The notes beneath the pieces are model-generated. The model worked only from the letters and a program-made list of their open reading frames with translations. It was not told the DNA's origin and searched no databases. A stretch of 64,000 bases of DNA from Tetracentron sinense (taxonomy: Eukaryota > Streptophyta > Magnoliopsida > Trochodendrales > Trochodendraceae): contig CM026570.1 in NCBI GenBank assembly GCA_015143295.1, positions 27,101,250 through 27,165,249 of the forward strand, given 5' to 3'. This document shows positions 12,683 to 52,312 of the stretch, piece after piece. A program made the translations under genes and the position numbers. Each line of letters opens with the position of its first letter. Position 1 is the first letter of the stretch.

Positions 12683-14739
12683 CATAGTCCAAGTCGAGTC
12701 TCTTGAAGACAAAGCCAAATCACAAGACCCAAGATCAAGTCGAAGATCAGCTCTCAAGAGGCTTATGAATGTATTTTTATGAGAGTGTCTAAGACTTATG
12801 TAAGAAGTCCTCAAAATATGGTAAGTTGAATGCTCAAAATACCTAGATTGACCATAGGAGCCTAGGACATATAGTGGACATCATTCTAAGGCCCTAAAAA
12901 TTCTTAAAAATCATGTTAAAGGAAAGTCAAATGACCTAGGAATTCATTCCTATCATTAAGGTCTGATTCAAAAAAGAAAAACAATTTTTTACTCTAAATT
13001 CGTCGATGAAATCACAAGGGTGATTTGACTTCGACGACGAAATGGAGATAGGAAAAATTCTTGTGATTTTTGTTCTTGGATTCGGTGACGAATTGAACCG
13101 GTGACCCAGATTTGTCGACGAAATGAAGCTTGAATCAGAAAAACGTTGTAACGTCTATTTTTCAACGACCTTATTTGCATTTAATGCTTCACCAACGGTA
13201 AAATTGGATCATGAGCTATAAAAGAAGTTCATTTATGAACAAAATAAAAAAACTTGATCAATGTAATAACTCCAATCATCTACTCTTTCACTTACATTGA
13301 TTTCATCATCAATCATACACTTAGAAATTGTAGCGCCCTAGAACTTTTCGTACCTAATGAATAGTGTTCTCCTAGTCATTGGCCTTTCACGTAGTCCAAT
13401 TAATAAATAAAAGAGAACTTGAAAATTATAAAACATCAGAAATGTTCCCCTTCGAATGACAAACCCAACACAAGTTGAATCGTCAAAATCCGACGAGCGA
13501 GTCAAAAGAAATGACCGAAATACCAAAATAAGGTAAAACATCAAAAATCTGAAGAGCGCCAATCGCTAGAAATCAATCGATCCACAACTAATCACTCGAT
13601 CTAAATTAGTGATCGATCAGTCCACAACCGATCGATCGGTATCTGTCGACTGGTCCAAAATTTTGTATGGGAAAAACTTCCAGAGAGGCTGTTTTCAACC
13701 GATCACTCAGTCATAAACACTGGGTCACCGATCGCTCGGTCTTCGCGTTTTGCTGAAATTTCATTAAGGGTTTTTTCGTCTTTTGGGCATTCTACACTTG
13801 CCTATAAGGGCTTGCTTGAGCCATAAGGGTTCATAAACCCTAAGACCTCATATTTTGAGAGAGAGTGAGAGAGGAGAAAGAGGTTTTCTCCTAGGGTTTC
13901 AACTAGAGAGAAATCAAGGGTTTGAGAACCCTAGATCATCCCAATAGCTTGGATTTCTCAAATCTACCCTCAAGCACGTGTGGAGTTCCTTCTCCAAGCT
14001 CGGGCAGCGTTTTTCCATGGTATTTCTCAAAAGACTTCTTCCCCAATCAAGCATCCTTCAAGCAAGGGTTCTCCTTTTCCAACTTGGAGCTTCAATCAAG
14101 GGTTTCCATCCAAGATCAAGCTTTGGTTTCAAGGTTAGTACACCCTACTAACTCACTTAGCAATCCTAAGATTCCTCTCTATTGTAAATGATGATTTCTA
14201 TCATGTGTGCTCCTCTTTCTTTGGAATATGCTTATCCCCTAAATGTGAGCAAGATAAATGGAATAATGGATGTAGATGTGTGGGGTGAATGTTGGAGGCG
14301 ATGGATACCGTGTAGATGTGATGAATGTTATGTGATGGAAATGGTGGAAGGGCATCTTACAAATAACGAACACACTTGATGTTGATGAAATGTATGCATT
14401 AAGAAATTGAAATGAAATGACTATAAATGTGATGCACACCATGTGTTTGGTAAAAGACCTAAATGAGAATTAAATGGAATTAATGAAGAACACTAAAATA
14501 TGATCTATGTGCTTTTCTTAAAGTAGTAAATTGTCCAATGTTATACATGCCAATCTAAATTCTCACATGTTTATACTATGAATCGAAATGCTATGCACTA
14601 TCCTCCATGTCATATATGTCATCATGATTATTACCACAAGTGCTACACATACTCATGTATGCATGCTTGAACCAATGTTTTTAAAGTACAAGTTGGAAGA
14701 AACAAACAAGAACAAGAATTGTGATTCACGAAACGAATG

Positions 14740-14985
14740 AAAAGGTCGGACATCGGGCCGATTAAGGGTAAGGCATATCCCTATGATATGTCATACCTGG
14801 CTCACAAGGAAACAAGCATGAATGATAAAGTCAGACATCGGGCCAGTCAAGGGTAGGGCATATCCCTAGGATATGTCATACCTGGCTCACAAGGAAACAA
14901 GCATGAATGATAAAGCCGGACATCGGGCCGGTCAAGGGTAGGGCATATCGCAAGATATGTCATACCTGACTCACAAGAAAACAAG
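14740..14985. repeat. Tandem 85-bp repeat in the solo LTR, three copies
   Basis: Each unit carries GACATCGGGCC, AAGGGTAGGGCATATCCCTA, GGATATGTCATACCTG and CTCACAAGGAAACAAGCATG. The CATATCC(C)TAGGATATG part is a near-perfect palindrome. Element A has a related ACATATCCTACGATATGT palindrome in the equivalent LTR position. Confidence 0.8.
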
Positions 14986-15466
14986 ACAAGGAGGTTGGTG
15001 TACCTTTTCTATATATATATATATATTTCGCTGAAGGGAATTTACATTCCCGGCTCATAAGTTGCCTCAAGGGCACTAACCTCTGGCTCACAAGTATACA
15101 AGTCAAGAACAAACAACATATGTGATTCCAAACAAGACAAGACACGCATGCATGATTTTCACAAGCAAGACCAAGACAAGAAACAGGTTTTTAAATATGA
15201 CAAGTAAGGTTTGAAAAACACGAAAGACTATTTTCAAGAACAAGTCCAGGTTTCTAAAAATGAGTTTTATCGGAGTTTTCGCATTCATGCACGCATGTCA
15301 AGATTATCATATTGTTTTATTTCCAATGCTATAAATGTCACATGTTGCTAGTGTTGCTTAAAATTGATTATTGTATATTATGGTTCATTGTTGTTGTGTG
15401 AAGGTTATTGCTATGGTTAGCTAGTAGCTTGTACTCGCTGAGTATTCCATACTCACCCGTACTTTT

Positions 15467-15604
15467 ATGTCGATAGGTACCGAGGAAGCCCTCAACCCTG
15501 AGCCTTGGGTTGAGGAAGAGTATGTTGAGGAGAGGGAGCCTCCTATCCCGATGCAGTCGCAGGAGGATAAGGATCGCAACGTCTGGCCATACCTAGATTA
15601 CTGA
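15467..15604 (+). CDS. LTR-embedded acidic short ORF (45 aa), PW-EEEY family
   Basis: This is an open frame from ATG (ATGTCGATAGGT) to TGA. It contains EPWVEEEYVEE, the core shared with the short ORFs in elements A, B and the other LTRs. The C-terminus is longer than in A and B and ends WPYLDY. It lies 3' of the conserved CTGAGTATTCCAT hairpin and directly spans a GATAG|GT acceptor-like site. No known domain is recognised. The evidence for coding is conservation with synonymous codon differences. Whether it is translated is unknown. Confidence 0.5.
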   Translation: MSIGTEEALNPEPWVEEEYVEEREPPIPMQSQEDKDRNVWPYLDY

Positions 15605-15990
15605 TGAGCATAGTAGGCACAATAGTTCTTTTTGTATTTGGATATTTTGATAGGTGGGCCTGTCCACCTTCACTCTGATTATGTTATGTATATTTTCACT
15701 TGGAATATAGACTACCTTATAAAGAAAAGAAAATTTTGGGTTAACACTTCCTCACTCATGTTTAGCTTCCGCACTTTGATTATTGTTGTTATTATATCAT
15801 GTTAGCCTTGTTCATTATAGGATGGTTTGAAAGGTACGAATAGTCACCTCTAAAGTATCCCTTAACTCCTAGGGGGTATTTTGGGGCGCGACAGAAATCC
15901 TCAAAATCTCTTTTGAGCTATTCAACTCCATTCATTTGAGAGATTTCATTAGAGTTTGTTGTCCACTCTTATTCAACCAATATTAGAAGC

Positions 15991-17147
15991 ATTCAATTCG
16001 GAGGGGGTGAGACCATGGGTCTCACCCACGGTCTGGGTTAGGTCCAAAGCCTATTTGGGTTGCGGACTAGGGTCTAACCTTAGTCAATCTGCGGACCAAG
16101 ATAGGGTGGGATTCATAGAGTCTATTTGCAAAGCTTATGTGGGGCTCTGCTCGTAAAAGCAAACCCTAATCACATGTCAGTCCCCTCAGGACTAACAAAA
16201 ATGGGTATCTGTGGGGCATTATTGCCTTGCTGTCAACATTAAATGCTAGGCGGGTTGGCGATGAGCCAGCCCTTGGCCAGCTGGTGCGCGTGACTTTGTC
16301 ATGCGCGAAGCCCAATCGTCCATTTTATGGGTGGTAATCAGGTGTAAGCAGGTGCATCATACACCAGCCTTACGAGCAGTGAGATTTCACTGCCCCCAAT
16401 AACTTAATCATAGAAATTAAAGAATTACTTGGAAGTATTTCTTCTTACTAATATTTGCGAATCAGTCCCTCCAATTAATATTGCACATGAGAATACAAGA
16501 CAATTTTTCTACATTGTCAAGTCCCCAACTTATGTAGAGAATTGTTTTAATTGATATTTTTCATCAAATTAAATTCCCAAAAATAAATTTGAAATTCATT
16601 AGAAGAATTAATAAAATAATTACTTCTTTATGTTTAGAAAATAATCATTATGATAATGCCATTTCTTTGATAAACATCAGCTAAATTTCTAAGCCTAGTT
16701 CGATAAATTTCATTCTCCATTTAAGGAATTGTGGAATCCTTGTTAACTGTTCACACACTCCCCTAAGTATTGTGTACATAACCTAATAGCCAAGACAAGG
16801 AAAGGGATGAGTCCTTTGTTTATTTCAAAAGAAGGAATTACATAGATAGATACTTGAGAAGATGTTGATCTATCGGGTTAAGGATAATCTGTCAAATAAA
16901 TCACCCTAATATAAGTAGACAATGTATTACATAGGATATCTAAAAATAGTCAATGCAGTTCAGTACAAGTACACCACATGTTAAGAGACTCTTCTATTCA
17001 TAATTGAAATTCACCTCACCATCTTATGGAACAAACCCTGCATGTGAAAGCCAAATAGAAATACAATGCCCATTTGTATTAAAATGGCTTGGAACAATTG
17101 TACGCCTACAGGAACTAGAAAACCATGTCTCATTTGTCTTTGGTTCT
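15991..17147 (+). repeat. Dispersed 1.2-kb repeat (copy 1)
   Basis: From the palindrome TGAGACCATGGGTCTCA to about GTCTTTGGTTCTTA, this block is closely similar to 42761-43990 in the same orientation. Shared landmarks are ATGTCAGTCCCC, AGGCGGG, GCCAGCTGGTG and CAGGAACTAGAAAACCATG. It holds no gene. The flanks differ at both ends, so it behaves as a dispersed repeat, class unknown. Confidence 0.7.
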
Positions 17148-17976
17148 TATTCCGGGTCCGTACTTGTTCGGCTCCAGAACGGACTAACATCTCTGGACGG
17201 AGGTCGTCGATGTTGATGACAAACAGTTGCCATAATTGTTGTGAAGGTCGTCGGATTAACACCTCTGAATGCATTTGTGCCCAACTTGAAGAACAAGTTC
17301 CTGTCTTCTTGTGCTGAGTCTATGTCAGTCTTTGCCTTAATAGCCGGGTGACTTTGATCACGATTGTTAATGCCCCTTGCATAATTCGAAGAAACACGCA
17401 AGTTCACCTTTTCTTTTCTTGATCCGATAACATCATTGATGATGTCATCAGGTGTTGAGTTTTATCTCAGGAGGACCCTATTTCAGTTGGCCTTCAGTTG
17501 CCAACATATCTCTTTCTTGGAAAGGGAATTGATTGTGGATGAATATATGTCCATCTCCTGCTCCTTCTCCTTCTCCCTCCTGAGATGGTCTTGTCTGTGG
17601 ACTTTTATTTCCGCAGACTCAGGTATGTTTCTAGACCTGTCCGTGGAGTTAGATACAACTCTACCCACCAAGTAACCTTGGGCTGGACCCTTGGGTCTAG
17701 CTGAGCTTTGGGTCCGTGGACCCTGATTGGTGTCCGTGGGTGGGCATTGCCCCTTGCCCATGGAGTGGCCTTGGCCACTTCTCCTTCTGTCCATAGGATT
17801 AGCCTACCGACTAGCCTTCTGATTTTGAGCACGGGTCTGCGGACTCAAACTCCTGTCTGCAGACTTCTCCTGCAGGTCGGTTCCCTATACTTGGTTATTT
17901 TTGTTATTTTTAACCAATTTTGTTGGGAAAGTTCTTGTCAGTCCCTTAGGCCAATGGCCTTGTTCTTTTGCCGTGA
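17148..17976. other. Unassigned repeat-like DNA hosting element A
   Basis: No gene is recognised. The stretch contains recurring GTCCGTGGAC and CTGCGGACT/CTGCAGAC motifs, which continue on the other side of element A (27849-28446). Joining the flanks at the GAGAA duplication gives one uninterrupted host sequence. Confidence 0.4.
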
Positions 17977-18237
17977 GAGAATGTAGAACCCCGAAACTTT
18001 TGTATATGCCTTGGGATGTGTGTCAAGGCATGGTGTCTTGTAATCTCAATTTCATGAAATGAGAATTTGATACTTCGATGGAATTGTGTCAAGAATGCTA
18101 TAATTAATTAGATAAATTATTTAATAAAGCCTATAAGCTTTAAAGAGGTCCTAGTAAAGTTTAAAAAATATTAGAATAGAAGTAGAATGGGTCCAAATAG
18201 TAGGAATGGGTGAAAAATGGACTCAGTGTCAAAACCT

Positions 18238-18435
18238 GCAGACCACCGATCGCTCGGTCCATTGTAGCGATCGATCGGTCCATAACCGATCGATCGGAGG
18301 CTATCGACTGGTTAAACTTTTTGTATGGGAAAATTTTCCAGAGAGCTTGTTTTTGACCGTTCGCTCGGTCAAAAACACCGATCACTCGGTAGGCAACCGA
18401 TCGATCGGTCATAACCACCGATCGCTTGGTCCCCC
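18238..18435. repeat. Palindromic CGATCGATCG cluster in the 5' LTR of A
   Basis: Repeated ACCGATCGCTCGGTC, GCGATCGATCGGTC and ACCGATCGATCGG motifs are spaced by short unique words. They lie just 5' of GCGTTTTGCAGAAATTTCA and the probable start region. The 3' LTR has one unit fewer (25770-25945). Confidence 0.85.
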
Positions 18436-19299
18436 GCGTTTTGCAGAAATTTCAATAAGGGTGTTTTCGTCTTTTGGGCATTTCACTCATGCCTTAAAGG
18501 CTTTGCCCGAGAGTTTGAGGGTTCATAAACCCTAAGTAGAGACCTTGAGAGATAGACAGAAAGGAGAAAGAGATTTCTAACCTAGGGTTTTAAGAACCCT
18601 AAATCATCACAAGCTCGTTTTCCTTCAAGATGAAGGCTCAAACACTTGTGGAGCACGTTCTCCAAGCTAGGGCAGCAACTCACGCACGTTTTTGCAAGGG
18701 GTTTCTTCCCTCATTTGTCAAGGTCGGTACCTTTTGCTACCCTCCTAATTCATACCTCTTTTCTTTCCTTCTTCTTTATAGTTTCCCTAATATATGAACC
18801 TAATGGGATGAATAGATGGTTGTTAGATGTGAATGGGCGATTGGATGCCGTGTGTATGGTTGTGATGAATGAAATGGGGAGGGCATTGTATCCATAATAA
18901 ACATACATGTGTGATGTGAACATTAATCCACGTAGAAAAGCATGATGTAGGTTTAATACATAACGAACACACCCCTTGTATGATGAAATGCCAAGGTGAA
19001 TAAAATGAGTTGGTAATTAAGAGATGCATGCTTAATTAATTATGAAAATTCCTAGGACCTATGATAGTGTGTTTCCTTGCTTTCCCTAAATTGCATGAAT
19101 ATTGACTTGCTCAAATTATCGATGTCATATGTATTGTGAATTACCCAATTGTCATATTTAAATTCAAATGCAAGTATGCACACGATTCCACGAGTACGGC
19201 ATGCATGACATGATTTACCGAAGTTTTTCAAGAACGAGAATTAGAGGTGGGACATATCCTACGATATGTTTTACCTCACTTTTGATAAGAACAAGACAA

Positions 19300-19600
19300 G
19301 CATGAGCATTAAGGAAGAAAGGTCTCCCTTCCCTCACAAGTAGTTTATTTTTCAAGCAAGCAAGATACATGGCATGGCAAGCATGAGCATTTAGGAAGAA
19401 GGGTCTCCCTTCCTTCACAAGTAGTTTATTTTCAAAGTAAGCAAGATACATGGCATGGCAAGCATGAGCATTTAGGAAGAAGGGTATCCCTTCCCTCGCA
19501 AGTAGTTTATTTTCCAAGCAAGCAAGATACATGTCATGGCAAGCATGAGCAATTAGGAAGAAGGGTCTCCCTTCCCTCACAAGTAGCATGAGCACGTTTA
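19300..19600. repeat. 81-bp tandem repeat in the LTR of A, 3.6 copies
   Basis: Each unit has GCATGAGCATTTAGGAAGAA, GGGTCTCCCTTCC, CACAAGTAGTTTATTTT and CAAGATACATGGCATGGCAA. The GGAAGAAGGGTCTCCCTTCC part can fold on itself. Because 81 is divisible by three, a long but spurious open frame appears on the minus strand. Confidence 0.85.
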
Positions 19601-19894
19601 TTTCCAAGTAAGCATGGCATGGCATGACATGTGTGACATGACATGATACGACAAGACAAGACAGACAAGACAAGTTTTCAAACACGAAATGGGCAATTTG
19701 AGTCAAGTGAAGTGCACGATGTTTTCAAGGGTTTTATCGGCTTCTACGAAAATACAAGCTTGATTATAAACTGCTTTACTTTCCTGTTATGAGATTATCT
19801 GCTTCCTGCTTATATATATATCATCGTTGCTGTACTATGACTATTGGTTAGCATTTGGTACACGCTGAGTATTCCATGCTCAGCTGTACTTCTT

Positions 19895-20014
19895 ATGTCG
19901 GCAGGTGATAGCGGAGCGGCTGCTCCTTTTGACATCTGTGCTCCGAGCCCATGGGGGGAGGAGGAGTATGTCGAGGAACCTGTGGAGGAACCTCCGGTAG
20001 AGGGCTACTATTAG
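19895..20014 (+). CDS. LTR-embedded acidic short ORF (39 aa), 5' LTR of A
   Basis: An open frame of 40 codons runs from ATGTCGGCAGGT to TAG. The core reads PFDICAPSPWGEEEYVEEP, followed by EEPPVEGYY. The same frame is open in the 3' LTR of A and in both LTRs of B, and the core recurs in three other LTR types. The peptide is strongly acidic, without a signal peptide or membrane segment. An acceptor-like GGCAG|GT lies inside codons 3-4, so the ATG would be lost if an LTR intron from 18723 were spliced there. Function unknown. Confidence 0.55.
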   Translation: MSAGDSGAAAPFDICAPSPWGEEEYVEEPVEEPPVEGYY

Positions 20015-20324
20015 GTGGTGGTAGATTCTGAGTGAGTGAGCTATGGGTGAGTTGAGAGAGATGTATTCATGTATTTTGGCGGGCCTGTCCGCACTTTCTT
20101 TTGTGTATTTTTTTGTATAAACTTGGATCACATATATATATACATAGAGGTTTGGTTAAGTCTTCCGCTGTGCTATGTTAGAGTATGTTTCCGCTATTAT
20201 GTCCTCTATTGTATATGCTCCAGGTCTTTTACAGGTTATTTTGGTCAAGCAAGTCATGCAAGTTATGATGAGTCGTCCAAGATTCATTCTAACTCCTAGG
20301 ATGGGTTTTGGGGCGCGACAGAAG

Positions 20325-20336: not shown

Positions 20337-20675
20337 TTAGGCTTTAGGTCTCTAGGGTCACTTAGAATCTAATACCACGGCTTGACAAGAGCATATGTTA
20401 GGAAATAAGTTAGGAAGGAAGTAAGTCGGAAGCGAGTCATGTTCCAACCGTAAGACTAAACTTTAGTCTTAGTCAAAATGGTTGTTTCAACCAAGTACGG
20501 GTCTTAGAGACGCTAGAACACCAAAGTATAATATGATAAATACTCTGATGACTTGATGTGATGTATGCTAGTGTTATACAATTTGTGCAATTGAATTATG
20601 ATGAATTGAACCAATACGATAAATTGTGGTTTCAAGTTAGACTCATGTAGTGCTATTATTCACAGGACTTTAGTC

Positions 20676-21939
20676 ATGAGAGGGGGCACATGGGGTCGTG
20701 GACCACATACCAGAGCTTCATCTTCTTCTCGAGATGAGGTTGAACAGCCGAACCTCTCACAGGTCTTAGGCTCTATTGCTGAGACACTCGCCATACTAGC
20801 GGCTCGGCAGGCTATACCATCATCAGCGGCACCTACTCCACCGCCTACGGCTCTAGTACATCGTACAGCTGGGGTTGAGGCGTTCAGGAGAATGAGGCCT
20901 CCATCATTCCATGGGAGTGTGGACCCTCTTGCCTCGGAGGCTTGGATCCTCCAGTTGGAGAAGATCTTTGCGGTCCTCTCACCTTCAGAGGAGGATAGAG
21001 TAGCATGGGCAGTTTTCATGCTTGAGGGTGAGACACACCATTGGTGGTTGTCCGCCTTAAGGACTTGAGATTTGATCATGCATGGTCAACCTTGGACTTG
21101 GGAGGAGTTCAAGGATACTTTTTTACAAAAAGTACTTTCCCGTTGGAGCACGGGAAAAGAAAAAAAAAGAGTTCATCAACCTAGAGCAAGGTTCGATGAC
21201 TGTGGCCGCTTATGAGGCTAAGTTCTCGGAGCTTTCTAGATTTGCGCCTCACATGGTTGCTACTGAGGCAAGGAAGGCGAGGAGATTTGAGCAAGGGCTC
21301 AAGGATGTCATTATGGAGAAAGTATCGGCTTTCAGGCACGCTACTTATCTGGAAGTAGTAGACAATGCCTTATTGATCGAGGCAAATTCTGAGGCGGTGT
21401 CCAAGAAGAGGGAGTTGGCGAGAGGCCAAGCTAGTAGTTCAGCACCTTTAGAGAGGCGGGCTCGTACCAACCCTTATCAGTACACGTGGCTAGCACCACC
21501 TCAGTATGCGTGGCCATCACCACCGATGAGGCCATCTTATGCACCCCCAGTTCCACGGTTGTACGTGCCTCAAGCGCCACGGCCTCAGGCTCTTCCAGCT
21601 CCACGGCCAGTTGCACCTCAGACGGCGAGGTATGCTCCACCTCCAGCCCCTCCGACTTACACATATGAGGTCTGCACTTTATGCGATCAAAGGCATCTGG
21701 CAGGAGATTACCGAAGAGCATCGAGTGGATGTTATCATTGCGGTCGCCAGGGCCATATGATCAAGGATTGCCCGAGTCGGCATTTGCCTGGCCAGTCTCA
21801 GGGGATTAGTCCCCGAGCACGCCCAGTAAGATCATACCAGGCGTCACCCAGCCTACACCTCCGCCTCGCCAGGCGAACTAGGGGCGAGTCTTTGCCTTGA
21901 CAGAGGGCGATGCACTTGCATCGGATGATGTGGTACAAG
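20676..21939 (+). pseudogene. gag of element A (capsid and zinc knuckle), broken
   Basis: Gag starts at ATG 20676 (MRGGTWGRGPHTRASSSSRD), matched by the start of gag in element B. The capsid region (AWILQLEKIFAVLSPSEEDR, WWLSALRT) is cut by TGA 21066-21068 where B has CGA. An extra T in a T run near 21120 then shifts the frame. The capsid resumes as EFINLEQGSMTVAAYEAKFS. A proline-rich spacer precedes the CCHC knuckle CYHCGRQGHMIKDC. A further indel and a TAG disturb the tail. The last gag codons (GDALASDDVVQ) end at the donor of the gag-pol intron at 21940. Nucleic-acid-binding and particle-forming functions are family knowledge. Confidence 0.85.
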
Positions 21940-22080
21940 GTACGCGTTTAGAGTTATTCATTGTCCACGATTTCATGTTATGCCTTATTCCTTGTGTACA
22001 TATATGACATGTTATATATCTATGTATCTATATGTATACACTGTTGATACATGGATTGACTTAGCTAGCTAAAATTTCAG
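21940..22080 (+). other. Predicted gag-pol intron of element A (141 bp)
   Basis: It begins GTACGCG after CAAG and ends ATTTCAG before GAACCC. Removing it joins GTA CAA G to GA ACC CTA in frame, giving continuous VVQ-GTLLVN. Retained, it ends the frame at an in-frame TGA about 25 codons in. The equivalent in B (34503-34650) has the same borders and a conserved TTGACTTAGCTAGCTAA stretch near the 3' end that could hold the branch point. Confidence 0.7.
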
Positions 22081-25000
22081 GAACCCTATTAGTCAATGAA
22101 TGTTTGGCTCGAGTATTAATCGACACCGGGTCTACTCATTCATTCGTATCGTCGAGTTTCTCTCAAGGTTTTTCCTCCGAGCCTATTCAGTTGGAACAGG
22201 AGTTGGCCATTTCGACTCCTCTCGGCAAGACAGTACTGGCAGATAAAGTGTGTAGAAATAGTGTGGTTCAAGTGGGGAGCCACTAATTGGCGGTTGATCT
22301 AATCATCCTCGGATTTCAAGACTTCGACGTCATCTTGGGAATGGATTGGTTAGCAACACATCATGGACATGTGGCTTGTTTTGAAAAGATGGTACTCTTC
22401 CGGCTAGTGGAAGGCAAGCCATTTCATTTTCGGGGGTTGAGAAGTATAGATATTGCCTGTTTTATGACGTTGAGCCTAGCGAACCCTAAGGCAAAGGACT
22501 CTTCGACTATTCCAGTCGTGAGTGAATTCCTGGATGTATTCCCAGAGGAGTTGCCTGGATTGCCTCCAGACAGGGAGATTGAGTTTGTGATCAAGCTTGC
22601 ACCAGGCACAGCTCCTATTTTCAGGGCTCCGTATAGAATGGCCCCTATTGAACTCAAGGAGTTGAAGACTCAGTTGGAGGAATTGCAAGGCCTTGGTTTC
22701 ATTCGACTAAGTGTCTCACCGTGGGGTGCCCCGGTGTTATTTGTTAAGAAGAAGGATGGCTCGATGCGGATGTGCGTCGATTACCGACAGTTGAACAAGG
22801 TCACTATAAAGAATAGGTACCCGTTGCCTAGGATTGATGACTTGTTCGATCAGTTGAAGGGAGTAAAATTTTTCTCTAAGATCGATCTTCGGTCCGGTTA
22901 CCACCAGTTGAAGATCAAGGCCAAGGATGTGCCCAAAACTGCTTTTCGGACTCGATACGGACACTACAAGTTCTTGGTGATGCCTTTTGGTCTCACAAAT
23001 GCGCCGGCAGCCTTTATGGATTTAATAAACCGGGTGTTCCGGCCATACCTGGATCGATGGGTGATCGTGTTTGTCGACGATATCTTGGTGTATTCCCAGA
23101 CACGGGAAGATCACATGCGAGACCTTCGTCTTGCTTTGGAAATGCTGAGAGAGCACAAGCTGTACGCCAAACTTAGCAAGTGTGAGTTTTGGTTGGAAGA
23201 GGTGGCATTCCTAGGCCACGTTGTATCCGCGGAAGGTATTTCGGTAGATCCAAAGAAGATAGAGGCAGTCATGAGTTGGGCGAGGCCCAGGAGTGTCACA
23301 GAGATACGCAGTTTCCTTGGGTTGGCAGGTTATTATCAGAGATTCGTAGAGGGTTTCTTTAGCCTTGCTGCACCGCTCACTTACCTGACAAAGAAGAACG
23401 CCAAGTTTGTATGGAGTGACAAGTGTGAGATCAGTTTCACGGAACTGAAGAAGAGGGTTACTACAGCCTCCCTCCTTACAGTGTCATCCGGACATGGCGG
23501 GTATGAGGTGTACAGTGATGCCTCGCACGTTGGACTTGGGTGCGTTCTCATGCAGCACAAGAAGGTCATTGCCTATGCATCGAGGTAATTGAAGGAGCAT
23601 GAAAAGAATTACCCCACGCACGACTTGGAACTTGCCGCAGTCGTGTTTGAACTCAAGATTTGGCGATATTACCTTTATCGGGTAGAATTCTATGTGTATA
23701 CGGATCACAAGAGCCTCAAGTACCTCTTTTCCCAAAAGGAATTGAATCTAAGGCAACGGCGTTGGATGAAATTTTTGAAAGATTATGACTGCACCATCCA
23801 ATACCACTCGGGCAAAGCAAACATTGTAGTAGAAGCTTTGAGTAGAAGACCTCCGGGTTTGTTGGCTCACATGTTGGTGCAAGAATGGAAGCTATTGGAA
23901 GATTTGGCAAATCTGGACATCAATGTGAATGATTCTGTCCGCAGTCCTATTTTGGCAAATGTCACGGTCCGGCCGTATATTATAGATTTGATCCAAGAGT
24001 ATCAAGCCACGGATGTTGACTTGTTGGCTTTCCGGGACAAGGAAGTTGCCAAGGGTAGTGAGGACTTCTCTCTCACTAGCCGAGGTGCTATCACATTCAA
24101 GGGAAGGCTTTGTGTTCCAGCCAATGCGGATCTTCGACGAGAGATTATGGATGAAGCCCACCGGGCAAAGTACACGGTGCATCCAGGGGGTACAAAGATG
24201 TACCGGAACCTCAAGAATCACTTTTGGTGGTGGAATATGAAGAGGGATGTTGCGGAATATGTGGCACGGTGTTTGGTGTGCCAGCAGGTGAAAGCAGAGC
24301 ACATGCGGCCCGCAGGTCTATTACAGTCTCTCCCTATTCCCGAGTGGAAATGGGAGCACATATCCATGGACTTCATTGTTGGCTTGCCAAAAAGGGCAAA
24401 GGGCTTAGATGCGATTTGGGTTGTGGTGGACCGTTTGACAAAGTCCTCGCATTTCTTACCTTACCGGACCACGTTTAATTCTAGCCAGTTGGCCGCCCTA
24501 TATATCAAGGAAGTGGTTAGGTTACACGGGGTACCAGTCAGCATTGTGTCAGATCGGGATCCGAGATTCACGTCCAGGTTCTGAAAGAGTTTTTAGGATG
24601 CTATGGGTTCCGGACTTGATTTCAGCACCGCCTTTCATCCACAAACGGATGGACAAATCAAGAGGGTGAACAAAGTCATCGAAGACATGCTTCGGGCATG
24701 TATGTTGGATTTCAAGGGCAGTTGGGAAGAACACTTACCTTTCGTTGAATTCGCCTATAACAATAGCTATCAGGCAAGCATCCAAATGGTGCCATTTGAG
24801 GCATTGTATGGGCGAAGCTGCAGGTCTCCTCTCTATTGGGATGAGGTAGGAGAAAGAAAGGTGTTAGGTCCGGAGTTGATCGAGCAAACTGCTAGTATAG
24901 TCAAGATCATCCAGGATCGGTTGAAAGCCTCTCAAGATCATCAGAAGAGCTATGCGGACACGCGCCGTAAGGACTTGGAATTCCAGGTTGGGGATCAAGT

Positions 25001-25406
25001 CTTTGTGAAGGTATCTCCTAGCAAGGGGATTATGAGATTTGGCAAGCGAGGCAAGCTTAGTCCTCGGTATGTTGGCCCGTTTGAGATCATCACGCGAGTT
25101 AGTGAAGTTGCTTACAGGGTAGCTCTTCCACCTTATATGGCCGCGGTTCACAACGTTTTCCATGTGTCTATGCTTCGGAAGTACATTGCGGATCCTTCGC
25201 ATGTCATAGACTTGGAGCCGTTGGAAATACGGGAGGATCTCACTTTAGTTGAGCAGCCGGTTCACATATTGGATCAGAGAGATCAAGTTCTTCGCAATAA
25301 AACTATCCCATTGGTTCTTGTGCAATGACAGCATCATGCTCGAGAAGAGGCTACATGGGAACGTGAGGCCGAAGTCAAAGCGAAGTACCAGGAATTGTTT
25401 GAATGA
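22081..25406 (+). pseudogene. pol of element A: protease, RT, RNase H, integrase, chromodomain
   Basis: The whole region is one reading frame without frameshifts but with in-frame stops at 22284, 23586, 24582, 24594 and 25326. Protease has an intact DTG (22122-22130, LIDTGSTHSF). RT has [26 protein letters not shown] and the catalytic FVDD at 23070-23081. RNase H carries [13 protein letters not shown]. Integrase has the HHCC zinc region (VHPGG ... CLVCQQVK), [15 protein letters not shown] and FHPQTDG. The C-terminus has the GPF..I motif (YVGPFEIITR) and a chromodomain-like end (EEATWE). Element B reads sense at every stop position. Most of the differences are C-to-T or G-to-A, as expected for methylated, silenced DNA. 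Confidence 0.9.
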
Positions 25407-25493
25407 GTTTTGTATAGGTTTTGTATATGACTTGTAAATTTGTTTTGGTTTGTAGCGCATGTGCTGTCCAAATTTTGAGGATGAAATTTTTGT

Positions 25494-25509
25494 AAGGGGG
25501 GGGGGGAGA
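25494..25509 (+). other. Polypurine tract of element A
   Basis: AAGGGGGGGGGGGAGA lies directly before the TG of the 3' LTR. It is the usual primer site for plus-strand synthesis. Confidence 0.85.
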
Positions 25510-27843
25510 TGTAGAACTCAGAAAATTTTGTATATGCCTTGGGATGTGTGTCAAGGCATGGTGTCTTGTAATCTCAATTTCTTGAAATGAGAATTTGATA
25601 CTTCGATGGAATTGTGTCAAGAATACTATAATTAATTAGACAAATTATTTAATAAAGCATATAAGCTTTAAAGAGGTCCTAGTAAAGTTTAGAAGATGTT
25701 AGAATAGAAGTAGAATTGGTCCAAATAGTAGGAATTGGTGAAAAATGGACTCAGTGTCAAAACCTGCAGACCACCGATCGCTCGGCCCATTGTAGCGATC
25801 GATCGGTCCACAACCGATCGATCGGAGGCTATCGACTGGTTAAACTTTTTGTATGGAAAAATTTTCCAGAGAGCTTGTTTTTGACCGATCACTAGGTCAA
25901 GAACACCAATCGCTCGGTAGGCAACCGATCGATCGGTCCCCCGCGTTTTGCAGAAATTTTAGTAAGGGTGTTTCATCTTTTGGACGTTTCACTCATGCCT
26001 TAAAGGTTTTGCCCAAGCATTTGAGGGTTCATAAACCCTAAGTAGAGACCTTGAGTGATAGAGAGAAAGGAGAAGGAGATTTCTAACCTAGGGTTTGCTT
26101 TTGGGGAGAAATCAAAGGGGTTTTAAGAACCTTAGATCATCACAAGCTCGTTTTCCTTCAAAATGAAGGTTCAAACACTCGTGGAGCACGTTCTCCAAGC
26201 TAGGGCAGCAACTCACGCATGTTTTTACAAGGGGTTTCTTCCCTCATTTTTCAAGGTCGGTACCTTTTGCTACCCTCCTAGTTCATACCTCTTTTCTTTC
26301 TTTCTTCTTTATAGTTTCCCTAATGTATGAACCTAATGGGATGAATGGATGGTTGTTGGATGTGAATGGGTGATTGGATGCCGTGTGTATGGTTGTAATG
26401 AATGAAATGAGGAGGGCATTGTATCCATAATAAACATACATGTGTGATGTGAACATTAATCCACCTAGAAAAGCATGATGTAAGTTTAATACATAACGAA
26501 CACACCCCTTGTATGATGAAATGTCAAGGTGAATAAAATGAGTTGGAAATTAAGAGATGCATGCTTAATTAATTATGAAAATTCTTAGGGCCTATGATAG
26601 TGTGTTTCCTTGCTTTCCCTAAATTGCATGAATATTGACTTGCTCAAATTATCGATGTCATATCTATTGTGAATTACCCAATTGTCATATTTAAATTCAA
26701 ATGCAAGTATGCACACGATTCCACGAGCACGGCATGCATGACATGATTTACCGAGGTTTTTCAAGAATGAGAATTAGAGGTGGGACATATCCTACTATAT
26801 GTTTTACCTCGCTTTTGACAAGAACAAGACAAGCATGAGCATTTAGGAAGAAGGGTCTCGCTTCCCTCACAACTAGTTTATTTTTCAAGCAAGCAAAATA
26901 CATGGCATGGAAATCATGAGCATTTAGGAAGAAGGGTCTCCGTTCCCTCACAAGTAATTTATTTTTCAAGCAAGCAAGATACATGGCATGGCAAGTATGA
27001 GCATTTAGGAAGAAGGGTCTCCCTTCCCTCACAAGTAGTTTATTTTCCAAGCAAGCAAGATACATGGCATGGCAAGCATGAACAATTAGGAAGAAGGGTC
27101 TCCCTTCCCTCACAAGTAGCATGAACACATTTATTTCCAAGCAAGTATAACATGGCATGACACGACATGATACGACAAGACAAGACAGACAAGACAAGGT
27201 TTCAAACACGAAATGGGCAATTTGAGTCAAGTGAAGTGCATGATATTTTCAAGGGTTTTATCGGCTTCTACGAAAATGCAAACATGATTATAAATTGTTT
27301 TACTTTCCTGTTTGAGATTAACTACTTCCTGCTTATATATATATCATCGTTGCTGTACTATGACTGTTGGTTAGCATTTGGTACACGCTGAGTATTCCAT
27401 GCTCAACCGTACTTCTTATGTCGGTAGGTGATAGCGGAGCGGCTGTTCCTTTTGACATCTGTGCTTCGAGCCCATGGGTGGAGGAGGAGTATGTCGAGGA
27501 ACCTATGGAGGAACCTCCGGTAGAGGGCTACTATTAGGTGGTGGTAAATTCTAAGTGAGTGAGCTGTGGGTGAGTTGAGAGAGATGTATTCATATATTTT
27601 GGCAGGCCTGTCCGCACTTTCTTTTGTGTATTTTTTTGTATAAACTTGGATCACATATATATATACATAGAGGTTTGGTTAAGTCTTCCGCTGTGCTATG
27701 TTAGAGTATGTTTCCGCTATTATGTCCTCTATTGTATATGCTCCAGGTCTTTTGCAGGTTATTTTGGTCAAGCAAGTCATGCAAATTATGATGAGTCGTC
27801 CAAGATTCACTCTAACTCCTAGGGTGGGTTTTGGGGCGCGACA
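25510..27843 (+). repeat. 3' LTR of element A
   Basis: It runs TGTAGAACTCAGAAAA to GGGGCGCGACA and is followed by the duplication GAGAA. Relative to the 5' LTR it lacks one CGATCGATCGG unit (near 25935) and has about 25 extra bases (near 26095). The donor-like TCAAG|GTCGGT, tandem repeats (26836-27120), hairpin and short ORF are all present. Confidence 0.9.
27418..27537 (+). CDS. LTR-embedded acidic short ORF (39 aa), 3' LTR of A
   Basis: This is the same 40-codon frame as in the 5' LTR, from ATGTCGGTAGGT to TAG. The core is FDICASSPWVEEEYVEEP. A few residues differ from the 5' copy, but the frame, the PW and the EEEYVEEP block are kept. Confidence 0.5.
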   Translation: MSVGDSGAAVPFDICASSPWVEEEYVEEPMEEPPVEGYY

Positions 27844-28446: not shown

Positions 28447-28750
28447 CTAAGAGTCGCGACCCAAAACCCACCCTAGGAGTTAGAGTGAACTTTGGACGAC
28501 TAATCATGGCTTACATGACTTATTTTACAAACCAACCTTCAAAAACCCACGGAGCATATACAATAGAGGATATAAACAGCGGAAACATATTCTAACATAG
28601 CACAGCGGAAGTCTAAACAAACCTCTATGTATATACGAATCCAAGTTTACACAAAAGAATCCAAAAGAAAGTGCAGAAAGACTCGCCAAAATACCTGAAT
28701 GTATATCTCTCATCTCACCCACAGCTAATCCACTCAAAATCTAACACCAC

Positions 28751-28870
28751 CTACTGATAACCCTCTATGGGAGGTTCCTCCAAAGGCTCCTCGACGTACT
28801 CCTCTTCCACCCATGGACCAGGAGCACAAACATCAAATGGAGCAGCAGTTCCCTCAGAACCTGCCGACAT
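28751..28870 (-). CDS. LTR-embedded acidic short ORF (39 aa), 3' LTR of B
   Basis: From ATGTCGGCAGGT to TAG in 40 codons. The core is PFDVCAPGPWVEEEYVEEP, then EEPPIEGYQ. Length and frame are identical to element A, although many third codon positions differ (GAT GTT TGT against GAC ATC TGT). That pattern suggests selection on the peptide. Confidence 0.55.
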   Translation of the reverse strand: MSAGSEGTAAPFDVCAPGPWVEEEYVEEPLEEPPIEGYQ

Positions 28871-30298
28871 AAGAAGTACGGCTGAGCATGGAATACTCAG
28901 CGGGTACTAAATACTAACCAACAGTCATAGTATAGAGATAGCATACATAAAGTAGGAAACAAATTTCATATATAGAACAGGAACAATTTATATCATACAA
29001 GGAAGTAAAGCAATTTATAATCATGCTTGTATTTCGTAGAAAGCCGATAAAACCTCTTGAAAACATCGTGCACTTGACTTGGCTTGAAATATCTTTTCGT
29101 ACTTGAAAGCTTGTCGTGTTTGTCTTACTTGATCTTGTCGAGCATGTCGTACGTGTCATTTCATGCATGTCATGCGTGCTTGCTTGTGATCATGTAACTT
29201 GTGAGATACACTTGTGAGATATCCTTGTGAGATGCACTTGAGAGATGCCTTGAGAGGGAATGGAGACCCTTCTTTATGCCATGCACTTGCGAGGGAAGGG
29301 AGACCCTTCTTCATGATATGTATGTACTTGCGAGGGAAGGGAGGCCCTTCTTCATGATATGCACTTGTGAGTGAGGGGAGACCCCTCATGGAATGTTGGT
29401 TCTTGTTTTCTTGTGAAAATCGAGGTAAAACATATCGTAGGATATGTCCCACCTCTAACCATGTTCTTGAAAACCTCGATAAATCATGTCATACATGCCG
29501 TGCTCGTGGGAACCGTGTACATACTTGCATTTAAATTTAAAGATGACATTTGGGTAATTTCACAACACATATAACATCAATGATTGAGCAATGTAATATT
29601 CATATCATTTAGGGAAAGCAAGAAAACACACTATCATAGGCCCTAGCAATATCCATAATTTATTAGGCATGCATTTCCTAATTTACAACTCACTTTATTC
29701 ACCTTGCATTTCATCAAACATGGTGTGTTCATTATTCATTATTCTTTTAAACCTAAATCATGCTTTTCTAGGTAGGTTAAGCTCACATCACACTTGAATG
29801 TTCATTATTAGTACAATCCCCTTTCCCATTCATTCATCACCTCATCCACACGGCATCCATTCGCCAACATCCACCTCCATTCACCATTCATACCCCCAAT
29901 CTCATAACACATGTATAAGTGAAGGAAAACAAGAAGAAAATAAAGGAAAAGAGAAGCTATAACTAGGAGGGTAGTAAGAAGTACCGACCTTGATCAAGTG
30001 AGGAAGAAATCCCCTTCCAAAAACAACCGTGAGTTGCTGCCCTAGCTTGAGGAGATGCTCCTCACGAGTTTGTGCCTCGATCTTGAAGAAAAATGGGCTT
30101 GAGTGGAGTGTGGGTTCACAAACCCCTTGATTTCTCTCCAAAATGGAAACCCTAGATTGGAATCGCCTTCTCCCCTTTCTCCTATTCTCTCAAACTCTCT
30201 AAGTGTCAAATGATGCCCTAAAGGCTCAGGTTAAACTCTTAAGGTAAGAGTAAACCGACCAAAAGACCATAATACCCTTACTGAAATTTTTGTAAAAA

Positions 30299-30617
30299 CG
30301 CGAGTACTGAACACGTTGAGCTGTGAATAGTGCCAAACACGTTGTGTTGTGAACAGTGCTGAACACGTTGTGCTGTGAACAGTGCCAAACACGTTGTGCT
30401 GTGAACAGTGCCAAACACGTTGTGCTGTGAACAGTGGTGAACACGTTGTGCTGTGAACAGTGCTGAACACGTTGTGCTGTGAACAGTGCCAAACACGTTG
30501 TGCTGTGAATAGTGCTGAACACGTTGTGCTGTGAACAGTGCCAAACACGTTGTGCTGTGAATAGTGCTGAACACGTTGTGCTGTGAACAGTGCCAAACAC
30601 GTTGTGCTGTGAAGGGT
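30299..30617. repeat. 26-bp minisatellite in the 3' LTR of B, about 12 copies
   Basis: The unit contains CACGTTGTGCTGTGAACAGT followed by GCCAAA or GCTGAA. The unit is not a multiple of three, so all three minus-strand frames stay open and give repeated spurious peptides. Confidence 0.9.
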
Positions 30618-31074
30618 GCCGAACCCGTTGTCACGTTGTGTTGTGCATAGTGCTGAGCTCGTTGTCCGTTGTCTTATGTACAACGTACCCGTTGTGAGCT
30701 GTACAACGTACTCGTTGTTTGCTGTACAACGCACACGTTGTTTACTGCACGACGTACCCGTTGTCTGTTGCACAACGGATGCACAATGTACACGTTGTCA
30801 GAGCTAGAGCTACGTCCTTAGTGCCTTCCGAGCTACGTCCTTAGTGCCTTCCGAGCTACGATTGCCTACAGGTCCAGACTGTTTTGGCCATATCTTTTGA
30901 CTCATTCGTCCGATTTTGACGATTCAACTTGCGTTGGGTTTGTACTTTGAAAAGGAACATTTCTGCCGTTTCAGAATTTCCAATTTCTTCCTTATTTATT
31001 AATTATACATCTTTAAAGGCAAAATGACAACGAAAGTGCCATGTATTAAGCATGAAAAAGTCTGGGGCTCTACA

Positions 31075-34502: not shown

Positions 34503-34650
34503 CTGAAATTTTAGCTAGCTAAGTCAATCCATGCATCAACAACGTATACATATAGGTATGTGTACATATATAACATGCCAAGTACGTACACAATCAATTA
34601 ATACTTAACAGTTTAATTTACGGAAAATTAAATAAGCTACAACTGCGTAC
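34503..34650 (-). other. Predicted gag-pol intron of element B (148 bp)
   Basis: On the minus strand it starts CAAG|GTACGCAG and ends ATTTCAG|GAACCC, the same borders and phase as in A. Unspliced, the frame ends at TAG four codons after CAA. The 3' third, including TTGACTTAGCTAGCTAAAAT, is almost identical in A and B, although the 5' part has diverged. Confidence 0.7.
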
Positions 34651-36208: not shown

Positions 36209-36511
36209 CTTCAGTCGCGACCCAAAACCCACCCTAGGAGTTAGAGTGAACTTTGGACGACTAATCATGGCTTACATGACTTGCTTGACAAACCAACCTG
36301 CAAAAACCCACGGAGCATATACAATAGAGGATATAAACAGCGGAAACATATTTTAACATAGCACAGCGGAAGTCTAAACAAACCTCTATGTATATACAAA
36401 TCCAAGTTTACACAAAAGAATCCAAAAGAAAGTACGGACAGACCCGCCAAAATACATGAATGTATATCTCTCATCTCACCCACAGCTAATCCACTCAAAA
36501 TCTAACACCAC

Positions 36512-36631
36512 CTACTGATAACCCTCTACGGGAGGTTCCTCCAAAGGCTCCTCGACGTACTCCTCTTCCACCCATGGACCAGGAGCACAAACATCAAATG
36601 GAGCAGCAGTTCCCTCAGAACCTGCCGACAT
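36512..36631 (-). CDS. LTR-embedded acidic short ORF (39 aa), 5' LTR of B
   Basis: The 40-codon frame is the same as in the 3' LTR of B, with the core FDVCAPGPWVEEEYVEEP; one residue differs (PVEGYQ against PIEGYQ). It is open from ATG to TAG. Confidence 0.5.
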   Translation of the reverse strand: MSAGSEGTAAPFDVCAPGPWVEEEYVEEPLEEPPVEGYQ

Positions 36632-38096
36632 AAGAAGTACGGCTGAGCATGGAATACTCAGCGGATACTAAATACTAACCAAGAGTCATAGTATACAGAT
36701 AGCATACATAAAGTAGGAAACAAATTTCATATATAGAACAGGAACAATTTATATCATACAAGGAAGTAAAGCAATTTATAATCATGCTTGTATTTCGTAG
36801 AAAGCCGATAAAACCTCTTGAAAACATCGTGCACTTGACTTGGCTTGAAATATCTTTTCGTACTTGAAAGCTTGTCGTGTTTGTCTTACTTGATCTTGTC
36901 GAGCATGTCGTACGTGTCATTTCATGCATGTCATGCGTGCTTGCTTGTGATCATGTAACTTGTGAGATACACTTGTGAGATATCCTTGTGAGATGCGCTT
37001 GAGAGATGCCTTGAGAGGGAAGGGAGACCCTTCTTTATGCCATGCACTTGCGAGGGAAGGGAGACCCTTCTTCATGATATGTATGTACTTGCGAGGGAAG
37101 GGAGGCCCTTCTTCATGATATGCACTTGTGAGTGAGGGGAGACCCCTCATGGAATGTTGGTTCTTGTTTTCTTGTGAAAAGCGAGGTAAAACATATCGTA
37201 GGATATGTCCCACCTCTAACCATGTTCTTGAAAACCTCGATAAATCATGTCATGCATGCCGTGTTCGTGGGAACCGTGTACATACTTGCATTTAAATTTA
37301 AAGATGACATTTGGGTAATTTCACAACACATATAACATCAATGATTGAGCAATGTAATATTCATATCATTTAGGGAAAGTAAGAAAACACACTATCATAG
37401 GCCCTAGCAATATCCATAATTTATTAGGCATGCATTTCCTAATTTACAACTCACTTTATTCACCTTGGCATTTCATCAAACATGGTGTGTTCATTATTCA
37501 TTATTCTTTTAAACCTAAATCATGCTTTTCTAGGTAGGTTATGCTCACATCACACTTGTATGTTCATTATTAGTACAATGCCCTTTCCCATTCATTCATC
37601 ACCTCATCCACACGGCATCCATTCGCCAACATCCACCTCCATTCACCATTCATACCCCCAATCTCATAACACATGTATAAGTGAAGGAAAACAAGAAGAA
37701 AATAAAGGAAAAGAGAAGCTATAACTAGGAGGGCTAGTAAGAAGTACCGACCTTGATCAAGTGAGGAAGAAATCCCCTTCCAAAAACAACCGTGAGGAAG
37801 AAATCCCCTTCCAAAAACAACCGTGAGTTGCTGCCCTAGCTTGAGGAGATGCTCCTCACGAGTTTGTGCCTTGATCTTGAAGAAAAATGGGCTTGAGTGG
37901 AGTGTGGGTTCACAAACCCCTTGATTTCTCTCCAAAATGGAAACCCTAGGTTGGAATCGCCTTCTCCCCTTTCTCCTATTCTCTCAAACTCTCTAAGTGT
38001 CGAATGATGCCCTAAAGGCTCGGGTTAAACTCTTAAGGTAAGAGTAAACCGACCAAAAGACCATAATACCTTTACTGAAATTTCTGTAAAAACGCG

Positions 38097-49621: not shown

Positions 49622-51498
49622 TGTAGAGCCCCGAAATTTCATTTCACTAAGAATGAATAGTGTGTGAATAGTGCCCAAGTGTGCTTTTGTACACTTATGG
49701 GTCTTATGTTAATATATGTGTTTGGAATTATGGCGTATATGTTCCAATGGGTCTATATGTCCTTAGGGAATGTGTTGAAAGCATAAAAGAGTGTTGGAAG
49801 TGCATTGGGGAAGATTCGAGTGGTGTAAACAAGGTTTTTCAGCAAAGCAGGGGTCGACCGATCGCTCGGTCATTACCTGCGATCGATCGGTCAACTACCG
49901 ATCGCTCGATAGCTGTCACACGGTCAACTTTTTTGTATGGGGAAAAATTTCAGAGAGTGTGTTTTTGACCGATCTCTCTGTCATAACACCGATCGACCGG
50001 TAAGCCACCGATCGCTCGGTCCAGACCACCGATCGATCGGTCATACGCAGATTTTCTTCATTAAGGGTATTTAAGACTTTAACCATCACCTTTTGCCTAT
50101 AAAAGGGCTGGGTTCGTGCCTTAGGGTTTCACAAACCCTTTGTGGATTGTTTTTGATGGATTTGAAGAAGAGAAGGAGGAGAGGACCTTGGTGATCGTTC
50201 AAGCTTGTGGAAGATCAAGTTCTTCCTTTCCATTTGGTGTTTTCCAACCAAGAACTCACTGTTCTTGCTTGTTCCAGCCATTGGGAGTCAAACTCATTGA
50301 TTTCTCCAAGGTAGATACACTCTACTACAATCTTGCAATCCTACTAGTTACTAATTATGATTCTTCTTATCTATGCCCTATCTATATGTATTGATTTTAT
50401 GTATGAAAAGGTGTGATTATATACTTGGATGAAGGTTACTATTATGATGCACTCTAAGTGTTTGATAAAATACCTCTAAGGGATTCTATGCTTAAATACG
50501 ATGATTTCTCTTATTAAGTGCATATGCTCGCATGTCTCGCATAAACCGATGGTTTCCATGGATTTCTCCAAGTACAAACAAAGGTTTTTCACGAAAAGAC
50601 GAATAATGAATTATTCTAAGTAACTCTATGATTTCTCTAAGATCGTTTCACAAAGCTCTAAGGATCATACCATGCTCACAAGGAAACTCTATGATAATGC
50701 TCTAAGATCGTCTCACAAGCTCCACGGATCACAATGAAATGCTCTAAGATCTCTAAGGTTATGCTCTATGGAAATGCTCTAAGGTTATTGCTCTATGCTC
50801 TATGTCTCTACGGATCATAATGACTCTAAGTAACTCCATCAACTCACAAGAACTCATAAGGCTATGATTATCGATTGACTCACACGGTTACAGATTTGGT
50901 TTCGACTATTATCTCACATACGTTTCACGGTTTCCATGCTTTAAGGAATTTACAGATTTCATTCTCCATGTCTTGTATGCTCCATGCCTAACCGCTTTAT
51001 TGTTATTAGTTTGTATACAATGAGTATTCCATGCTCAGTCGATATTGTTATGATCGGCAGGTGCTCGGGTTCCATTCGATTTGTGTGGCGAAGAACCTTG
51101 GGTCGAGGAAGAGTACCGTGACCCGGAGCCTTCCATGGATCACTATCATGACGATGGTGCTTTAGATAGGAGTCGTGACTTCGATTTCTGTTGATCGACC
51201 GACTTAGAACTTGTGTCTTTTTGTTATGTGAGTGTGGGGTTTGTCCACTCCACTTTTGAGTTTCTCACACATGTATACTTGTTGGTTCTTACTTGAGCCA
51301 AGTTATAGGAGTATTCATTTTGCTTCCGCTATGTTTAGTATTTTGTTTTCCGCTGTGCATTGTATTTCGTTTCCGCTATGTATATTCAGGTACTCTGACA
51401 GGTTTCCACGTGTGCCTTATGTATCATACTAGAGGTATGATATGGCGGTCACGAGTCAAAGTACCCTTAACTCCTAGGGGGTATTTTGGGTCGCGACA
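49622..51498 (+). mobile_element. Solo LTR nested in the LTR 48206-52259, duplication GACAA
   Basis: The 1877-bp LTR runs TGTAGAGCCCCGAAATTTCA to TTTTGGGTCGCGACA. GACAA is found at 49617-49621 and 51499-51503. It has the CGATCGATCGG cluster (49855-50045), a strong TATA box TATAAAAGG at 50098, a donor-like CCAAG|GTAGAT at 50311, the TGAGTATTCCATGCTCA hairpin near 51020, a GGCAG|GT acceptor at 51060 and the acidic frame at 51054. It is younger than the LTR it splits. Confidence 0.9.
51054..51194 (+). CDS. LTR-embedded acidic frame in the nested solo LTR
   Basis: Open to TGA 51192-51194 with the core PFDLCGEEPWVEEEYRDPEP and then SMDHYHDDGALD. The ATG found in A and B is shifted one base out of frame here (ATGATCGGCAG instead of ATGTCGGCAG). 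It therefore has no own start unless it is joined by splicing at GGCAG|GT. The core is nevertheless kept in frame over about 45 codons. Confidence 0.4.
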   Translation, partial: SAGARVPFDLCGEEPWVEEEYRDPEPSMDHYHDDGALDRSRDFDFC

Positions 51499-51826: not shown

Positions 51827-51940
51827 ATGACTTTGTTGTTGGCAAGTTTTAGGTTTGATATATGTGCCCCAGGACCTTGGGAAGAGGAAAAGTATGAGAA
51901 AAAAGAAGATCCAGCAGGTGATCATCCCGATGGTAAATGA
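51827..51940 (+). CDS. LTR-embedded acidic short ORF (37 aa) in the outer LTR
   Basis: From ATGACTTTGTTG to TGA in 38 codons, containing RFDICAPGPWEEEKYEKKED and ending DGK. It is the most divergent family member, with no EEP repeats, but FDICAPGPW is identical in sense to A and B. The preceding TTTTAG|GTTTGAT could serve as an acceptor. Confidence 0.5.
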   Translation: MTLLLASFRFDICAPGPWEEEKYEKKEDPAGDHPDGK

Positions 51941-52312
51941 AATTTGGATCATTGGTCATTTCCTGGAAATTAAATTATTAGTATTTAGATTTAGAGTTTA
52001 AGACATTGTAATAGACTTAATGTTGGATTTATGGTAAGATTGAATTGATAGTTGGGAATCAGGATGGATGATTCGAATTATTGATTTTGTTTTAGTTTTT
52101 AAATTGAGGTATTAGACTTGATCATGATTAATTAAAAAAAAATTTAAGTTCATGTTTTAGATTGCCTTAATGCTTTATGACAGAAAGTTATGAAAGTTTA
52201 ATGGTCAAGTCACGTGCCAAAGTCTCACAGTAACTTAAGTGGGATTTTGGGGCGCGACATTTTCCTACTCAATGAAGTTATCACATTACCAAAAGAACAA
52301 AAAAAAAACTAC

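Follow-up and report, generated by a model that had tools for sequence, protein, structure and literature searches.

The window analysed here is a 64,000-nucleotide stretch of the Tetracentron sinense genome (1.16 Gb in 1,479 contigs; contig CM026570.1, positions 27,101,250 to 27,165,249), and it contains two chromovirus elements with long LTRs (long terminal repeats), which we have designated A and B, as well as the single LTRs or LTR pieces c15, c51a and c51b. The subject of this analysis is a short reading frame that recurs inside these LTRs, a part of the element normally regarded as non-coding. Three frames of B gave matches above the cut-off to Retrotrans_gag, Ty3_capsid, RVP_2, RVT_1, RT_RNaseH, SH3_Tf2-1 and Chromo. 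The host element carries the domains of a Tekay chromovirus (a chromodomain at the integrase end, Ty3-type gag and pol); the clade name is that given by a sequence-only reading of the window which preceded this analysis. The LTRs were located as follows:

about 17981-20321 and 25509-27843, + strand, LTRs of element A
about 36213-38923 and 28452-31074, - strand, LTRs of element B
about 13329-15893, c15, single LTR or LTR piece
49622-51498, c51a, single LTR
ending at 52259, c51b, single LTR or LTR piece

The sequence-only reading had described seven frames in five LTR types that shared the core of an acidic micropeptide. All seven translated as described, and as the frames starting at 19895 and 27418 were the LTR pair of A and those at 28751 and 36512 the LTR pair of B, they represented five independent LTRs. 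The PW part of the core was upheld, with PWVEEEYVEE also present in 15467-15604, but the FD-x-C part was lacking from that frame. The frame at 51827-51940 was a damaged copy with a related reading, NLDHWSFPGN, beyond its stop. The conserved unit was longer than the noted core in most families (about 40-45 residues, with an end like DRNLDRWPYPGYY); that common to 30 diverse loci read xFDICxPxPWVEE[DE]YxEEEPxExxPExDRNLDRWPYPGYY followed by a stop. The surrounding LTR DNA, which had been called diverged, was so for c15 and c51a, as these aligned poorly with A except for the promoter and a few short stretches, but not for A and B, the LTRs of which were roughly 75-90% alike across much of their length, frame included. 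Taken from a G|GT junction (the vertical bar marks the joint) to the stop, the putative LTR coding exon, which we have designated exon 2, was placed at:

19905..20014, + strand, exon 2 of the A 5′ LTR
27428..27537, + strand, exon 2 of the A 3′ LTR
36512..36621, - strand, exon 2 of the B 5′ LTR
28751..28860, - strand, exon 2 of the B 3′ LTR
15477..15604, + strand, exon 2 of the c15 LTR (acceptor CGATAG|GT)
51061..51194, + strand, exon 2 of the single LTR c51a (no ATG; TGA just before the acceptor)
51846..51940, + strand, exon 2 of c51b, damaged (junction GGCAAGT, early stop)

Selection was assessed in 35 copies, consisting of the 30 diverse loci and A5, B5, c15, c51a and c51b. The 30 loci were fetched by a protein-similarity search that used as query the relative P0008, which comes from another data set, and in which 150 of 30,340 candidates were scored; as 30 of the 35 copies were obtained through protein similarity, the sampling favours conserved residues. 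The ratio of nonsynonymous to synonymous differences per site (pN/pS) was 0.35 in the frame, 1.13 and 1.08 in its two other frames, and 0.73-1.01 in the six frames of flanking LTR DNA. A ratio well below 1 in the frame, against 0.73-1.13 in the eight control frames, bore out the earlier proposal of a selected peptide within the LTRs. Differences among the window types were mostly at third codon positions, and the observation that residues held while third positions varied was confirmed, third-position differences being far more frequent than those at first and second positions. Stop frequency, the other check that had been suggested, was less decisive: there were 20 stops in 1,388 codons of the frame compared to 26 and 137 in 1,342 codons each of the other two, a weak separation from one of them. 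A stop fell within codons +1 to +38 in 12 of the 35 copies, among them A5 and B5, where it is the natural, earlier end, and L044, L045, L057, L061 and L068 had a common TAG where others carried a glutamine codon.

As a control for the sampling bias, the collected DNA was scanned for the 3′ end of the LTR. This gave 77 distinct ends, seven of which were away from the fetching peptide. Six of these seven chance-met LTRs carried the frame (L003b, L004b, L009b, which was damaged, L017b, L037b and L039b), five being flagged by the script and L009b recognised by eye; the frame was not found in L006b. The five window types, which the earlier reading had picked for the peptide, were combined with five chance-met LTRs into a set of ten, L003b being excluded for its closeness to A and B. 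In 12 of the 15 codons compared in this set, variation was greatest at the third position (binomial p = 0.0003). Pairwise pN/pS, with Fisher p values on rounded counts, was 0.20 for c51a and L039b (p 6e-7; the strongest constraint of the four pairs), 0.25 for c15 and L017b (p 2e-7), 0.33 for A5 and B5 (p 0.003; this pair includes some codons beyond the stop) and 0.45 for c51b and L037b (p 0.047), while the pooled value of the ten LTRs, whose C-terminal ends align poorly, was 0.54. Peptides of the c51a family were identical in the 150 copies scored of 26,003 candidates; c51a is a young family and L039b its older relative. The codon patterns indicate that selection acts on the frame at the protein level in the LTRs of Tekay-like elements.

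The type of constraint changed within the frame. Over the 35 copies, the third-position difference was 0.26, 0.21, 0.06 and 0.00 in the codons ATG-TCG-GCA-GGT and 0.64, 0.57, 0.50 and 0.64 in the next codons beyond the junction. Nucleotide-type constraint up to the junction and codon-type constraint beyond it is what an exon behind a 3′ splice site (YAG|GT) would show. The junction was [C/T]AG|GT in 28 of the 35 copies (GCAGGT in 22, ACAGGT in four and ATAGGT in two), and the PW codon was in the same phase to it in all LTRs of the set of ten. The ATG was absent from c51a, L039b, L004b, L037b, L052 and L064, which argues that a start codon of its own is not the conserved feature of the frame; the LLLLAG-type copies L052, L064 and L037b kept the frame with no ATG, and in c51a (51054-51194) a TGA directly precedes TCG-GCA-GGT, three codons upstream of the junction. 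The description as a self-contained micropeptide could not be sustained, as the start codon was missing in eight of the 35 copies, including c51a and L039b, which still evolve as codons. The spliced exon that the sequence-only reading had named as an alternative was favoured instead, given the missing start and the low third-position variation at the proposed start, unlike that after the junction. The 40 nucleotides upstream (the GAGTATTCCATGCTCA stretch) were conserved as nucleotides. A hairpin-like TGAGTAT-TCC-ATRCTCA, conserved with GC and GU variants, was also observed about 30-70 nucleotides before the frame (window positions 15457-15950; L001-L072).

A candidate upstream partner for exon 2 was found in gag. 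A, B and L042 (an element of the c51a family whose gag and pol frames are long and open) each had a GT..AG stretch between gag and protease with the donor CAA G|GTACGC, and reading across it gave ..DDVVQG[TS]LLVNECLARVLIDTG in all three. The putative introns were:

21940..22080, + strand, gag-protease intron of A (CAAG|GTACGC ... TTTCAG|GA), phase 1; carries the donor to which the 3′ LTR exon is proposed to be joined
34503..34650, - strand, gag-protease intron of B, phase 1

Of four further pieces, inspection by eye showed this arrangement in L074 and in L075, which has a stop beyond the joint, and the pieces of L073 and L076 did not reach gag. Exact DDVVQ|GTACG sites numbered 6,214 genome-wide, and the reversed pattern had none. 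The protease frame of B began at RVP_2 position 22, as if the beginning of the protease lay before the intron, and the unspliced ends of Gag differed among A, B and L042, so that reading through the intron would yield no conserved Gag end. The gag-protease intron was phase 1 in A, B and L042 (in L074 and L075 by eye), and the LTR exon is phase 1 too.

We therefore propose, at about even confidence, that the frame is an LTR coding exon without a start of its own, and that a tailed Gag would arise when the gag donor is spliced to the 3′ LTR copy of this exon. A coding exon in the LTR is well supported; gag as its upstream partner is what we infer. Such a joint would explain why the exon lacks a start, has a stop, matches the gag intron in phase and lies late in the transcript, and would give a Gag-only mRNA. 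In the full-length transcript, use of the protease acceptor, which lies 141-148 nucleotides from the donor of gag (CAA G|GT), would produce Gag-Pol, whereas the alternative joint to the 3′ LTR acceptor, about 5.5-5.8 kb away, would produce a short mRNA with pol as the intron (5,488 nucleotides removed in A, from 21939 to 27427, and 5,790 in B, from 34651 to 28861). The C-terminus of this Gag would be an acidic extension of about 36-45 residues (for most families, G-xFDICxPxPWVEEDYxEEEP..DRNLDRWPYPGYY), and unspliced RNA would serve as the genome. The complete scheme, with one gag donor, a protease acceptor for Gag-Pol or a 3′ LTR terminal exon for Gag with a selected acidic tail, and scattered LTRs as trappable phase-1 exons, is put forward tentatively, with slightly less than even confidence. 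A role of the tail in particle assembly or RNA export would be a guess.

Several observations weigh against this proposal. The junction AG was lost in seven of the 35 copies, and an ATG stood three codons before the junction in 27 of them. Exact patterns, used without a positive control, gave 0 genomic copies of the gag|exon 2 joint (c51a type and major type), and a scan for joined copies in the fetched DNA also gave 0. The protein database, searched over limited lengths and words, yielded no longer protein with the tail. Its sole hit at E<=10 among 15 candidates was P0008, and P0009 came from a second search that gave two hits including P0008 itself; these proteins of 47-48 amino acids are on ENA contigs of 743-753 bp, and as their readings include residues from the intron side, the contigs look unspliced at the junction. 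Agreement of phase has a probability of 1 in 3 by chance, and the gag-protease intron is known from sequence alone.

A second putative donor lay within the LTRs themselves. Upstream of the frame, the A, B, c15 and c51a LTRs had a TATA-like box and an ATG-poor stretch, here called exon 1, ending in a donor AAG|GT. With the transcript start assumed to be the TATA-like box +30, exon 1 contained three ATGs in 948 nucleotides over the four LTRs compared to 211 in 4,405 nucleotides of intron. Exon 1 was recognisable in the fetched flank of 12 of the 30 diverse loci, with the same kind of donor in eight of the 12. The corresponding candidate features were:

18521..18722, + strand, leader exon 1 of the A 5′ LTR (start at TATA-like box +30; 1 ATG)
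18723..19904, + strand, LTR intron of the A 5′ LTR (CAAG|GTCGGTAC ... TCGGCAG|GT; 55 ATG)
36622..37751, - strand, LTR intron of the B 5′ LTR
14134..15476, + strand, LTR intron of c15
50311..51060, + strand, LTR intron of c51a (CCAAG|GTAGATAC ... CGGCAG|GT)
20656..20678, + strand, acceptor-like TTATTCACAG|GACTTTAGTC immediately upstream of the ATG of gag in A; likewise in B and L042

This donor and its AUG-poor exon would suit a mini-gene in which exon 1 and exon 2 of the same LTR are spliced together, with a non-AUG start or one upstream of a different acceptor. When the two were joined in silico in ten copies, however, an open in-frame ATG was present in one (A3), its LTR partner A5 having ACG at that site, and c51a had a TGA three codons before the junction; the exact pattern of a c51a-type exon1|exon2 joint, again without a positive control, gave 0 copies in the genome, which is among the results against the proposal above as well. 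Because the joined copies give no conserved in-frame start, exon 1 looks like a leader. The likely target of its donor is the acceptor-like TTATTCACAG, TTATTCTTAG or TTGATCTCAG, which in A, B and L042 precedes the ATG of gag by 10-11 nucleotides. We consider the mini-gene improbable. Somewhat better placed, though still unlikely, is translation of the LTR transcript from ATG-TCG-GCA-GGT as an upstream open reading frame (uORF); its product, a free MSAG..PWVEEEY.. peptide encoded ahead of gag, would either function in trans or regulate the translation of gag. The frequent ATG would fit this, in A and B the frame is closed by its stop ahead of gag, and selection at the peptide level is what a conserved-peptide uORF would exhibit. 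Its own start codon, however, was not conserved: c51a and L039b lack the ATG and yet have a pN/pS of 0.20, there is little third-position variation across MSAG, and unspliced RNA starting near the TATA-like box would have 35-66 ATGs ahead of the frame in each of the four LTRs.

Exon 2 could also be a real exon that is joined to another upstream donor, for example within pol, of which only the end was read in A and B. As the pol of B has its own stop before the LTR and no phase-1 donor was seen by eye just ahead of that stop, this is held to be less probable than the mini-gene. That the look of a frame is produced by DNA or RNA signals conserved within the LTR, with no coding at all, would agree with the nucleotide conservation of the 40 nucleotides upstream, but the excess at third positions is limited to one frame and runs from junction to stop; the data already oppose this explanation, and we give it very little credence. 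For the proposed splicing of gag to the 3′ LTR exon, a putative donor and two putative acceptors were present in the sequence with matching phase.

Coding sequence in LTRs is known from Sag of mouse mammary tumour virus and Nef of human immunodeficiency virus. In the Caenorhabditis elegans element Cer1, the accessory protein CERV is encoded via a spliced mRNA (PMC10309623). These resemble the proposed arrangement in that a spliced mRNA or LTR sequence encodes a retroelement accessory protein; they differ in host, position and size, the likeness drawn being one of description. In CRM group A chromoviruses the polyprotein extends into the 3′ LTR, which encodes the CR motif of the integrase end (PMC3059260). 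These are likewise plant chromoviruses with coding sequence in the 3′ LTR that extends an element protein at its C-terminus, but by read-through, whereas here pol stops before the LTR (about 100 nucleotides before it in B) and the coding part is preceded by an acceptor and sits deep within the LTR. Short-Gag splicing has been described in EVADE and BARE1, and an intron in Ogre (PMC12786077, PMC6317226; PMC7730604 for sunflower). According to the same sources, EVADE splicing takes out the protease and meets an early stop, and the Ogre intron lies between GAG-PROT and RT. The proposed arrangement would similarly separate Gag from Gag-Pol by alternative splicing in a plant LTR element; unlike in EVADE and Ogre, gag and protease are the parts that its intron separates, and a selected LTR exon is put forward as the end of Gag. 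In its working it is closest to short Gag and to the LTR-coded tail of CRM elements, and probably falls within the definition of neither. As a review cited with these papers names Ogre and EVADE as notable exceptions among generally intronless plant LTR elements, descriptions of the gag-protease intron in this group may themselves be few.

An additional coding part near the 5′ end is also known within the same clade, the Tekay additional open reading frame (aORF) or ORF0 of sunflower group 2 (about 400 amino acids), RIRE3, RIRE8 and Retrosat2, which is separate and upstream of gag (PMC11728184, PMC3485330); the present frame has about 40 residues and is inside the LTR. Apart from gag itself, no open reading frame of at least 150 amino acids started between the 5′ LTR and gag in A or B. 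A term search of a review on additional open reading frames gave no mention of Tekay or of LTR frames (PMC7264820), and no account of an LTR-encoded spliced exon in Tekay was found in literature coverage that left out most subscription papers. No Pfam family was found for five tail proteins. Exact pattern matches in viral contigs were 0, and of 20 stretches that matched the pattern in GTDB genome contigs none was confirmed as a relative.

The LTR exon looks like a spliced last exon, possibly the tail of the particle-forming Gag. If so, the LTRs of an abundant plant retrotransposon group would code for protein, and splicing would offer an explanation of how they produce Gag in excess of Gag-Pol. 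Annotation and LTR-based dating would be taking a selected exon for neutral DNA. With insertions and single LTRs, a terminal exon of phase 1, ready for capture by host genes, would be spread in very many copies (27,749 first-look candidates, 150 scored).

Repeats were also observed in and around the LTRs. Blocks rich in GATCGATCGGT just upstream of the promoter (18242-18378, 25770-25906, 13584-13720 and 49854-49990) were common to otherwise diverged LTR types. The B LTRs contained 26-nucleotide tandem repeats (30173-30758 and 37967-38630), in which one minus-strand frame was open for 188 and 169 residues. Additionally, a direct repeat pair (16008-17149 and 42758-43988), about 26.8 kb apart and about 90% alike, flanked Tekay-type elements.
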